In this document: positions 32,767 through 36,927 of the stretch, piece after piece
How the letters are laid out: the number at the start of each line of letters is the position of its first letter
Numbering within the stretch: the first letter of the stretch is position 1
NCBI GenBank assembly: GCA_903831655.1
Contig: CAIKYO010000156.1
Span: forward strand, 1-42,912
Reading direction: 5' to 3'
Origin: an uncultured Burkholderiales bacterium
GTDB taxonomy: Bacteria > Pseudomonadota > Gammaproteobacteria > Burkholderiales > Burkholderiaceae_C
DNA length: 42,912 nt
Made by a program: the position numbers and the translations under genes
Notes under the pieces: generated by a model
Told to the model about the DNA's origin: nothing
What the model saw: the letters and a program-made list of their open reading frames with translations, nothing else
Databases searched by the model: none

Positions 32767-33222
32767 TTACAGCACCTCAAAGACTTGGTAGGTGGGACCA
32801 ATGGGGTCTCGGTGACCTGTGGCAACGGCCAACATTTTGTTGAGGAAAGCGTACTGAGGCGCTGCGGTTTCAAATTTAGGGGCCATGCGGAAGTAGTAGC
32901 TCCCAGGCTCAACGCTCTCGCCCTTGGCCAGTTTGTCCATGACTTCTGGTGGGCCGTGGCGCATGCCCTCATAGGACATGTAAATCAGTGAGTGGTCATC
33001 GCACTCCAAGGTGAGGCGCACGTTGAGGGTGAGCACGCCATCGTTTCGTACCAAAAGCCAGTCGCCAGCGGGGGAGGCTTGTACGTGTCCCCTCATGCGA
33101 TCACCCTGAAAGCTTCCGCCTTTGATGGGAGAGATCCGCCTTTGACCATAGGGGGTGTGACCGATTTCGATGATGGGTTCCACAAAGAGTTTGAGCTCAA
33201 AGAGGTGTTTCAATTCAATCAT
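32767..33222 (-). CDS. DUF3237 domain protein
   Basis: A 151-residue protein matching DUF3237, a beta-barrel family of unknown function found in catabolic and secondary-metabolism loci. Recognisable parts are GGSFQGDRMRGHVQASPAGDWLLVRNDG (in pieces), then LIYMSYEGMRHGPPEV and YYFRMAPKFETAAPQYAFLNKMLAVATG (in pieces). The ORF track adds 35 residues upstream. I start at ATG 33222 because AAAGG lies 6 bases upstream and family members begin near here. It is divergent from the VOC/TIM-barrel pair, so it may belong to the same aromatic-acid context. That link is inferred from position only. Confidence 0.82.
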   Translation of the reverse strand: MIELKHLFELKLFVEPIIEIGHTPYGQRRISPIKGGSFQGDRMRGHVQASPAGDWLLVRNDGVLTLNVRLTLECDDHSLIYMSYEGMRHGPPEVMDKLAKGESVEPGSYYFRMAPKFETAAPQYAFLNKMLAVATGHRDPIGPTYQVFEVL

Positions 33223-33292
33223 GTTGGACCTTTCTAAAAGGGGGGGGCAGTTGACATCACAAAGTTCGATTGTGCTCCATTTGGAGTTAAGA

Positions 33293-33364
33293 TTTGACCC
33301 ATGTAGTGCTTGGAGTTGGTGGGCCACCTGTGGTCTGGAATTTCAAGTATCCAGTTTGACCCAT
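33293..33364. repeat. Direct repeat TTTGACCCAT in a divergent promoter region
   Basis: TTTGACCCAT occurs at 33293-33302 and again at 33355-33364, 62 bases apart, between the divergent DUF3237 and VOC genes. They may be operator half-sites, but two copies of a 10-mer are weak evidence. Confidence 0.35.
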
Positions 33365-33395
33365 TGGGTTATCCATTTGTTTTCTCTTTTCAAAT

Positions 33396-34307
33396 ATGAA
33401 CCACACGACATCCACCGTGGGCTTGACAGACGAGTCCAACCGAGAAGCCATTCCATTGAGTGCAAACCCACTGGGCTTAGAGGGCATTGAATTCATTGAA
33501 TACGCAACCTCAAAACCCCAGGCATTGGGACAGGTCTTGGAGTTGATGGGTTTTAGACCGATCGCAAGACATCGTTCAAGAGAGGTCATGCTGTACCGCC
33601 AAGGGAGCATGAACATCATTGTCAATGCGCATGACTCGGGTCTGGCGCACAGCGTGGCGCCCACTGAAAAACCCGTGATCGCTGCGGTCGCGTTGAGGGT
33701 CAGAGATGCCCAGCAGGCTTATAAGCGCACCTTGTCCTTGGGCGCGTGGGCGGTTCCCACACATGTCGAAGTCATGGAGCTCAACATCCCAGCCATTCAC
33801 GGTGTGGGCACGAGCCGCATCTATTTTGTGGACCGTGTTCACGATTTCTCCATCTACGATGTGGACTTTGTACCCATCCCAACCGTGGACTCTAAGCCTG
33901 AGGCATTGGCAGGTTTCCATTTCTTTGGCATTGTGCAGTACATCGGCAACGACCGAATGGAGGACTGGATTGAGTTCTACAGCGAACTGTTTGGCTTCAA
34001 GGCCTTGGAGAGTTCGGAGCACTTTGGCATATTGACCAAGGGTCGCATTTTAAAGAGCGCTTGCAACACCTTTGGGCTTCAGTTGATTGAGCCAGAGCCT
34101 GGCGTCTTGGCCGTTGATGAGGACGAGAGGCTGCAGCGCATCGCGTTTGGCACAAGCGATGTGCTGGCCGCCATGAAGTTACTGCAAGGCAGAGGCGTTG
34201 AATTTGTGACCCACGCGGGTCAGGCCCCTAGCGAGAAGGGCGCATTGACGCGCTCTTGGTTGGGAGGTTTGAATTTTGAGTTGGTCTTGGATGGGCGCGC
34301 ATCATGA
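33396..34307 (+). CDS. 4-hydroxyphenylpyruvate-dioxygenase-like VOC protein
   Basis: A 303-residue two-module VOC protein close to HPPD: NPLGLEGIEFIEYA, MGFRPIARHRSREVMLYRQG, and the second module from about residue 168 (GFHFFGIVQYIGNDRMEDWIEFY in pieces). Aligned by eye to HPPD, iron ligand 1 (His in GFHFFG) and ligand 3 (Glu in LNFELVL) are present. Ligand 2, the His of the family's QHIA motif, is Arg here (LQRIAFGTSDV). True HPPD activity is therefore doubtful. HPPD-like modules also form the C-terminal half of QuiC-type dehydroshikimate dehydratases, and the next gene, overlapping by 4 bases, is the other half of such an enzyme. It could be a partner subunit. Confidence 0.75.
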   Translation: MNHTTSTVGLTDESNREAIPLSANPLGLEGIEFIEYATSKPQALGQVLELMGFRPIARHRSREVMLYRQGSMNIIVNAHDSGLAHSVAPTEKPVIAAVALRVRDAQQAYKRTLSLGAWAVPTHVEVMELNIPAIHGVGTSRIYFVDRVHDFSIYDVDFVPIPTVDSKPEALAGFHFFGIVQYIGNDRMEDWIEFYSELFGFKALESSEHFGILTKGRILKSACNTFGLQLIEPEPGVLAVDEDERLQRIAFGTSDVLAAMKLLQGRGVEFVTHAGQAPSEKGALTRSWLGGLNFELVLDGRAS

Positions 34308-35212
34308 TGCAAACCTCCGGAACATTGAACGACTTTGGCATGGATACCATCTCCATGGCGGGGTCTTTGGATTCAAAACTAGAGGCCATCAAAGGCGCTG
34401 GATTTGGCCAAGTGATGCTCTCAGCTCGAGATGTTGTGGGTCATCCAGGTGGGGTCGAGGCGGCGGTCGAGTTGGTGCGCAGCAGTGGCCTTAGAGTGAC
34501 CGGCTTTCAAGTGCTCAGGGACTTTGAGGGTCTATCTGGACATTTGCACGACTACAAAATTGACATTGCCAAGGCCATGCTCGAGATGTGCCACGCACTG
34601 GGCTCCAAAGTGCTCCTCGTGTGTTCCTCGACCTCTGTGCACGCCTCTCAAGATCCCCAGCATTTGGCGCGAGACTTGAGGAAATTGGCCATGTTGGCCG
34701 TTCCTTTGGGCATCAAAGTGGCCTACGAGGGATTGTCTTGGGGGCGCACGATCAATGAGTACAACACGGCTTGGGAGATTGTCCAACTGGCCGATACCCC
34801 GAACTTGGGGGTTGGCTTGGATTCATTTCACATGTTCGCAGCCAAGACCAGCCTTGAGGATTTGGAGCTCATCGACCCAGAGAAAATTTTCTTGGTTCAA
34901 TTGGCCGACTTCATGTGGCAAGAGATTCGCTCCATTGAGGAGCGCATCACTACGGCCAGGCATTTTCGAGTCTTCCCTGGGGAGGGGGTGCACAGCCAAG
35001 ATTTGGCAGACTTGGTGAGGCGCCTTTATCAAATGGGTTACCGAGGTGATTACAGCTTTGAGGTTTTTAACGATGACTACCAACAGTTGCCCTTGCCCAT
35101 GGTGGCGGCGCGCGCTTGGAAGTCCGCTCAGTGGTTGGGTGAGGATGTGATGCGTCGCTCGGTGCCGCTTCGCAACCAGATTCGTCTCAAAAGAGCTCAA
35201 GGTTTTATTTGA
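34304..35212 (+). CDS. Sugar phosphate isomerase/epimerase-type TIM barrel, dehydroshikimate dehydratase-like
   Basis: A 302-residue xylose-isomerase-like TIM barrel related to the N-terminal domain of QuiC-type 3-dehydroshikimate dehydratases, which make protocatechuate from quinate or shikimate. Putative metal ligands in order are Glu in VAYEGLSWG, Asp in VGLDSFHMF, Gln in FLVQLADFM, and Glu in YSFEVFND. SMAGSLDSKLEAIKGAGF at the start fits. ATGA overlap with the upstream VOC gene and TTGA overlap with nudB make a tightly coupled trio. In known QuiC fusions the barrel comes first; here it is second and separate. The substrate is inferred, and a hydroxypyruvate-isomerase-like activity is possible. 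Confidence 0.72.
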   Translation: MMQTSGTLNDFGMDTISMAGSLDSKLEAIKGAGFGQVMLSARDVVGHPGGVEAAVELVRSSGLRVTGFQVLRDFEGLSGHLHDYKIDIAKAMLEMCHALGSKVLLVCSSTSVHASQDPQHLARDLRKLAMLAVPLGIKVAYEGLSWGRTINEYNTAWEIVQLADTPNLGVGLDSFHMFAAKTSLEDLELIDPEKIFLVQLADFMWQEIRSIEERITTARHFRVFPGEGVHSQDLADLVRRLYQMGYRGDYSFEVFNDDYQQLPLPMVAARAWKSAQWLGEDVMRRSVPLRNQIRLKRAQGFI

Positions 35213-35788: not shown

Positions 35789-36496
35789 ATGACAGCCCAA
35801 ACCACTTCTGAGCACGAAGGTGCTCCCTTATCGACAGTGATTCGTTCGCGCATCAAAGCTGCAAAAAAACGTTTTCATGCCAACGACAACATTGCCGACT
35901 TCATCCACGAAGGTGAGATGGAGAAACTGCTCCTCGAGGTGAGCGAGAAGATGCAAGGCGTGCTCGATAGTTTGATCATTGACACCGCTAGCGATCACAA
36001 CACCGCGGAGACAGCCAAGCGTGTGGCCAAGATGTATTTGCAAGAGGTCTTCAAAGGCCGCTACGTTCAGGCGCCACCTATCACCGAGTTCCCCAACGCA
36101 GAGCATTTGAACGAGCTGATGATCGTGGGCCCCATCACGGTTAGGAGCGCTTGTAGCCATCACTTTTGTCCCATCATGGGTCAAGTTTGGATTGGCGTTT
36201 TGCCCAATGAGCACACCAACGTGATTGGTTTGTCCAAGTACGCCAGACTGGCCGAGTGGGTCATGGGTCGCCCCCAGATTCAAGAAGAGGCGGTGGTGCA
36301 GTTGGCAGACTTGATTCAAACCAAAACACAGCCCGATGGATTGGCTTTGGTGATGGAGGCCTCTCACTTTTGCATGGGCTGGAGAGGGGTCAAAGACTCG
36401 GAGAGTCGAATGATCAATTCAGTCATGAGGGGTGCCTTTTTGAAGGACCCCAATTTGCGCAGAGAGTTTTTGTCGCTTCTACCTAAGAAAGATTGA
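35789..36496 (+). CDS. folE: GTP cyclohydrolase I (type IA)
   Basis: This enzyme converts GTP to dihydroneopterin triphosphate, the entry to folate and pterins. The zinc ligands are seen in RSACSHHFCPIMG (Cys and His) and ASHFCMGWRGVKD (second Cys). AETAKRVAKMYLQEVFKGRY and IGLSKYARLAEWVMGRPQIQEE (in pieces) are family signatures. At 235 residues it is slightly longer than the E. coli enzyme, with a variable N-terminal arm. An AAGG lies 7 bases before the ATG. It follows nudB (next pathway step) and precedes a BLUF photosensor by 5 bases. Confidence 0.95.
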   Translation: MTAQTTSEHEGAPLSTVIRSRIKAAKKRFHANDNIADFIHEGEMEKLLLEVSEKMQGVLDSLIIDTASDHNTAETAKRVAKMYLQEVFKGRYVQAPPITEFPNAEHLNELMIVGPITVRSACSHHFCPIMGQVWIGVLPNEHTNVIGLSKYARLAEWVMGRPQIQEEAVVQLADLIQTKTQPDGLALVMEASHFCMGWRGVKDSESRMINSVMRGAFLKDPNLRREFLSLLPKKD

Positions 36497-36501
36497 TCAC
36501 C

Positions 36502-36927
36502 ATGTTAGTTCGTCTCTTGTATGTCAGTAAAGCCGTCAACGATGACGCCAACTCCCACACCGAGGCCATTTTGGCCTCCTCTCGCTCACACAATGTCTCC
36601 AACGGCATCACAGGGATTCTTTGCTACGGTGGTGGCATCTTTTTGCAAGTCATTGAAGGCGGTCGAGCCCAAGTCAATGAACTCTACAACTCCTTGGTTC
36701 AAGACAAGCGTCACAAAGAAGTGGTGCTCTTGCACTACGAAGAAATCACGCAAAGACGGTTCAGCGGTTGGACCATGGGTCAAGTCAATTTGGCCAAGCT
36801 CAATGCGTCCATTGTGTTGAAGTATTCTGAGAAGCCCGAACTCGATCCTTACGGTGTCTCAGGCGCCATGTCCTTGGCTCTTCTTGAAGAGTTGATGGCC
36901 ACGGCCTCCATCATGGGTCGCACCTAA
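36502..36927 (+). CDS. BLUF-domain blue-light sensor (short type)
   Basis: A 141-residue stand-alone BLUF protein that binds FAD and senses blue light. The key residues are in register with AppA: Tyr7 (RLLYVSKA), Asn31 (SHNVSNGITG), Gln49 (FLQVIEGG), Trp90 and Met92 (FSGWTMGQ). Spacings Tyr-Asn 24, Asn-Gln 18 and Tyr-Trp 83 equal those of AppA. After the domain only about 45 residues remain, so there is no attached output domain. It must signal through partners. I start at ATG 36502 rather than TTG 36493. It lies 5 bases after folE, so a shared transcript is very likely. Confidence 0.92.
   Translation: MLVRLLYVSKAVNDDANSHTEAILASSRSHNVSNGITGILCYGGGIFLQVIEGGRAQVNELYNSLVQDKRHKEVVLLHYEEITQRRFSGWTMGQVNLAKLNASIVLKYSEKPELDPYGVSGAMSLALLEELMATASIMGRT

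Follow-up and report, generated by a model that had tools for sequence, protein, structure and literature searches.

Two overlapping genes of an uncultured Burkholderiales bacterium (Burkholderiaceae_C), located in a contig of 42,912 nucleotides that is referred to below as the window, probably encode a 3-dehydroshikimate dehydratase of two separate proteins. One would be a catalytic TIM barrel and the other a metal-free, remodelled VOC protein related to 4-hydroxyphenylpyruvate dioxygenase (HPPD); we hold this reading with moderate confidence. The pathway is an ordinary one and the architecture is unusual.

The features of the locus are listed in Table 1. As the sequence-only reading had reported, the VOC gene and the TIM-barrel gene are separate, they overlap by ATGA and their order is reversed relative to QuiC. 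The overlap is likely to couple the translation of the two proteins. Across 107 relatives, the spacing between the VOC stop and the TIM start was mostly −4 to 22 nt. A frameshift or an assembly artefact was ruled out by a sibling sequence with 94–96% identity (L033) and about 110 other loci of the same layout; this layout and the residues described below are conserved across these loci and the arrangement is not due to chance. No match to a sigma-70-like promoter was found within the 173-nt divergent intergenic region.

Table 1. Positions of the gene pair, its neighbouring features and the degenerate TIM genes of relatives (window coordinates unless a locus is named)
Feature	Position	Strand	Remarks
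DUF3237 gene	32767..33222	-	Divergent neighbour, kept beside the pair in the window's lineage
Divergent intergenic region	33223..33395	.	173 nt, presumed promoter of the pair
VOC gene	33396..34307	+	HPPD-like, 303 aa, iron site lost, without C-terminal helix
Gly178 codon	33927..33929	+	Position of HPPD iron ligand H161; Gly in 98/98 of clade, 43/43 of wider set
Arg248 codon	34137..34139	+	Position of HPPD iron ligand H240; Arg invariant (98/98; 43/43)
Glu295 codon	34278..34280	+	Position of HPPD iron ligand E322, kept; invariant in 98-sequence clade
ATGA overlap	34304..34307	+	VOC stop/TIM start; ATGA in 10/107 relatives
TIM-barrel gene	34304..35212	+	QuiC N-domain-like, 302 aa, probable 3-dehydroshikimate dehydratase by sequence
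Glu142 codon	34727..34729	+	QuiC1 Glu134, metal ligand (QuiC1 alignment)
Asp173 codon	34820..34822	+	QuiC1 Asp165, metal ligand (QuiC1 alignment)
Gln199 codon	34898..34900	+	QuiC1 Gln191, metal ligand (QuiC1 alignment)
Glu253 codon	35060..35062	+	QuiC1 Glu239, metal ligand (QuiC1 alignment)
Degenerate TIM genes	L061:6907-7779, L067:6894-7775, L073:6887-7759, L077:6906-7796		
Degenerate TIM genes, continued	L078:6897-7778, L082:4797-5696, L101:6912-7805		

The VOC protein was attributed to PF14696 (Glyoxalase_5, HPPD N-terminal; 158.7 bits, E = 1.2e-46, cut-off 27) and PF00903 (Glyoxalase), and the TIM protein to PF01261 (AP_endonuc_2, E = 1.5e-27). The best match of the TIM protein was the N-terminal domain of P. 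putida QuiC1 (5HMQ; E = 1.6e-46, about 35% identity), and the next solved relatives, IolI among them, scored far lower. The VOC protein matched bacterial HPPD best (E = 2e-41, 145 bits) and the QuiC C-domain with 87 bits, and therefore it cannot be regarded simply as a QuiC domain that was split off. AlphaFold modeling led to mean pLDDT values of 81.5 (VOC) and 80.6 (TIM), with P. fluorescens HPPD and 5HMQ, respectively, as the closest PDB structures; the VOC protein shares the HPPD fold (1CJX, 7X8E; TM-score 0.71–0.76 by query length) and its N-terminal domain is that conserved in HPPD. Both proteins scored below the 1200-bit cut-off of NF042435, the family of two-domain QuiC (TIM 180 bits, VOC 101 bits), which describes a single chain with the TIM domain first, while the window has two genes with VOC ahead. 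This cut-off is narrow, since fused QuiC proteins of Burkholderiales miss it as well. The score of the VOC protein with the HPPD family TIGR01263 was 105 bits, compared to a cut-off of 277.

In order to evaluate the iron site, an alignment of the split VOC proteins, 21 HPPDs and 11 fused QuiC domains was made using MAFFT. The position of the first ligand is occupied by His in all 21 HPPDs and all 11 fused QuiC domains and by Gly in the split VOC proteins, and the second is His in both HPPD and fused QuiC and Arg in the split form. The nine fused QuiC domains that cover the other two ligand positions have His and Glu there. Thus, the 2-His-1-Glu triad of HPPD is replaced by G178/R248/E295. The clade was defined by a score of 315 bits or more, and the wider set of 43 split VOC proteins was taken without L146, one very divergent relative. 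It had been proposed from the window's letters that the first His and the last Glu of the site are kept and that the middle His is Arg. The latter two statements proved correct, with Arg248 invariant in both sets (L146 left out of the wider one) and Glu295 invariant in the clade. The first did not hold: the His in question, H175, lies three residues upstream of G178, which is where H161 of P. fluorescens HPPD aligns, and two of the three ligands are therefore lost, not one. H175 was rejected as an iron ligand by the alignment register and by strand parity, which places it on the opposite face of the strand, and it varies within the clade (H 89, R 3, K 3 and N 2 of 98). No other His was found at a metal position in the alignment. 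The possibility that H79 and H135 form a new metal site within the N-terminal domain was also considered and rejected, as these residues are not universal in the wider family. The loss is clade-wide and not peculiar to this genome; it is larger and older than had been proposed.

Further changes relative to HPPD occur in lock-step in the cavity of the clade, namely D177F, T180V, H181Q, S216G and P229Q (window numbering), and the cavity Asn of HPPD aligns with I231. As the cavity is strictly conserved, its pocket would have been rebuilt and not abandoned, probably around the conserved G178, Q181, Q229, E232, R248 and E295. In addition, the chain stops eight residues after E295, so that the C-terminal (gating) helix of HPPD is missing, and it is also absent from the model. 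The proposal that the VOC protein became a non-catalytic partner is well supported as far as iron and dioxygenase chemistry are concerned, given the clade-wide loss of two ligands.

The TIM protein retained nine of the ten active-site residues of QuiC1 as listed in PMC7442255, namely R64, L97, E134, L136, D165, H168, Q191, R210 and E239. The ten positions correspond to R72, L105, E142, L144, D173, H176, Q199, A218, R222 and E253 of the TIM protein. The exception is S206 of QuiC1, which is Ala (A218) here, as in 2 of the 11 fused QuiC proteins. All seven key positions that were checked are kept in 94 of 108 relatives. No other QuiC-type barrel of its own genome reaches a comparable score.

The VOC clade was found in 98 of 301 genomes of the family. 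The next matches below it reached 186 bits or less with about 43% identity and look like ordinary HPPD. A second collection comprised 80 named loci, mostly from Comamonadaceae and their relatives. The VOC gene lies upstream of the TIM gene on the same strand in all loci except those cut by a contig end. In a sample of 399 genomes from the phylum, five had matches above 241 bits, all of them Burkholderiales, and none was found above this value outside the order; the weaker matches in this sample are longer frames that resemble ordinary HPPD. In quick trees, in which QuiC was marked as one group, the TIM and VOC proteins of the split pair each branch apart from fused QuiC; the deeper branching order is unsure because of long branches. 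The pair is thus common and apparently undescribed in Burkholderiales: no published description or characterisation of the split form was found in the openly licensed literature, and an earlier account may exist elsewhere.

The pair of the relatives is surrounded by genes of Liv-type, TRAP or TctA transporters, IclR regulators, a catabolic shikimate dehydrogenase, the 3-dehydroquinate dehydratase AroQ and a PcaB-like protein. Several of these names were read from cluster-representative sequences; shikimate dehydrogenase, AroQ and DctP were profile-checked on the Vitreoscilla locus. The plasmid pVF1 of Vitreoscilla filiformis has the order TRAP, shikimate dehydrogenase, VOC, TIM, aroQ, and in four genomes of other families shikimate dehydrogenase sits between the VOC and TIM genes. 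Of the order-level loci, 14 of 17 had a shikimate dehydrogenase gene within the flank, as did 19 of 63 other loci; this is far above the roughly 1–2% estimated by chance for three or four copies per genome. The sequence-only reading allowed for a route not yet described. This is mostly unsupported: in the relatives the pair belongs to operons of shikimate/quinate catabolism, and the route is therefore probably the known one from shikimate to protocatechuate.

A plasmid of Massilia putida carries AroE, AroQ, shikimate dehydrogenase and fused QuiC, followed by a porin, VOC and TIM. Fused QuiC and the split pair occur there in one cluster (L145:4221-13739), and they also share one contig in L146, whose split pair is very divergent. 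This co-occurrence suggests that the two forms are not redundant.

In the window's lineage, the pair adjoins aspS, a NUDIX gene and folE. The window's own pair has no pathway gene beside it, and the divergent DUF3237 gene is its only conserved neighbour that may be relevant. That gene was present in all six checked loci of the lineage and is a possible pathway member. A gene for a BLUF blue-light sensor lies directly after folE (window positions 36,493–36,927). The same genome encodes LigA, LigB and LigK of protocatechuate 4,5-cleavage and four shikimate dehydrogenase homologues, and no HPPD above the family cut-off was found in it. Another of its contigs (C361; L232:5213-11438) carries a second aromatic cluster with a shikimate dehydrogenase homologue, flavoprotein-like and IclR-like genes, LigA/LigB-like proteins and a distant TIM barrel of 277 aa that has no match in NCBIfam.

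In a Rhodoferax-like lineage (the seven loci with degenerate TIM genes in Table 1) and in three genomes of another genus (L028–L030), the metal ligands of the TIM protein are replaced, with E142 changed to Q or K, E253 to A or S, and others, while the frames are open. In the Rhodoferax-like lineage omega was about 0.15–0.25 for TIM and about 0.07–0.13 for VOC, compared to TIM values mostly of 0.03–0.13 (one pair 0.25) for intact pairs. No second QuiC-type barrel above 36 bits was found in the seven Rhodoferax-like genomes, which is weak evidence because many of them are metagenome bins; L028–L030 have one near 150 bits. As one lineage lost the TIM metal ligands and both genes are under purifying selection, the VOC protein may have a role of its own, and these lineages may keep a non-standard role for the pair open. 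The PcaB-like gene downstream of TIM in L034–L101 loses its catalytic loop progressively: the GSS-x-x-PHKRNP motif is present in L081 and L075 and absent from L079, L077 and L038. The Rhodoferax-like lineage is among those without this loop. Its sequence points to a decaying or repurposed cycloisomerase.

All these characteristics allow us to assume that the TIM protein is a metal-dependent 3-dehydroshikimate dehydratase, which would convert 3-dehydroshikimate to protocatechuate. The VOC protein would be an HPPD-derived double-VOC protein without two of the three iron ligands, further cavity residues and the C-terminal helix. Both proteins are probably produced from one overlapping transcript and probably assemble into a complex, in which VOC would stabilise or tune the dehydratase; a role of this kind has been proposed for the HPPD-like domain at the C-terminus of QsuB. 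The pair of the window, located outside a pathway cluster, would serve the shikimate route too. The pairing is supported by the co-occurrence of the two genes in all loci with enough flank and by fused QuiC, which joins the same two modules.

QuiC1 and QsuB of Corynebacterium glutamicum share these modules and nine of ten TIM active-site residues with the split pair, and the shikimate/quinate catabolic context with its relatives. The split pair differs from them in the two genes and their reverse order. In its VOC protein, two of three iron ligands and the C-terminal helix are absent, and this protein resembles free HPPD more closely than the QuiC C-domain. Compared to HPPD itself, the triad of the VOC protein is dismantled, the cavity Ser and Asn are replaced and the helix is absent. 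The single-domain dehydratases AsbF, Qa-4 and Listeria QuiC2 have a TIM barrel without a covalent HPPD-like domain, like the split TIM protein, and PMC9324987 does not mention a conserved VOC gene beside them; AsbF was absent among the TIM sequence matches. A 2022 paper lists four classes of dehydroshikimate dehydratases, and in none of them is an HPPD-like partner encoded by a gene of its own (PMC9324987). For two-domain enzymes, the role of this domain was called unknown; that of QsuB showed no degradation of protocatechuate, and a function in oligomerisation was put forward for it (PMC7442255).

Public annotation names relatives of the VOC protein 4-hydroxyphenylpyruvate dioxygenase, but a working enzyme of this kind, or another Fe(II) dioxygenase, is hardly credible given the clade-wide loss of two iron ligands and the helix and the low TIGR01263 score. 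A role as a metal-independent enzyme or ligand-binding sensor in shikimate or protocatechuate catabolism, with a remodelled cavity and a cooperating, separable TIM protein, has a rather low but real probability. The residues by which the clade departs from HPPD (F177, G178, V180, Q181, G216, Q229, R248) are invariant and cluster in what was the active-site cavity. The VOC protein is tightly conserved where the TIM metal ligands are gone, which the main reading, with VOC as a pure helper of TIM catalysis, would not explain, and no other QuiC-type barrel was seen in those seven genomes. However, VOC always travels with TIM, degenerate or intact, and this branch of the VOC fold offers no known metal-free enzyme from which a specific reaction could be suggested. 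It is unlikely that the VOC protein is the centre of a remodelled-enzyme module, with a new pocket sensing or converting a shikimate- or protocatechuate-type acid and kept despite the decayed TIM and PcaB-like neighbours.

The coexistence of fused QuiC and the split pair in Massilia putida and on one other contig means that the split pair might act otherwise. TIM could be a different isomerase, epimerase or dehydratase that has a related cyclic acid as its substrate and VOC as its partner; the identity to QuiC1 leaves room for this, and the Ala at S206 in the split clade agrees with it. This is doubtful, as the QuiC1-type Arg64 (RDFEG motif), H168 and all four metal ligands are retained, IolI and other solved relatives score far lower and the shikimate dehydrogenase neighbours fit a dehydratase.

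For many Burkholderiales proteins that carry the annotation 4-hydroxyphenylpyruvate dioxygenase, this function is hardly tenable. The split pair is of interest because it makes the question of the partner domain testable: as a separate iron-less protein, the HPPD-like module can be removed, mixed or mutated without touching the catalytic barrel. Read as a two-gene dehydratase, the pair would extend the range of dehydroshikimate dehydratases employed for protocatechuate production by a class encoded in two genes.
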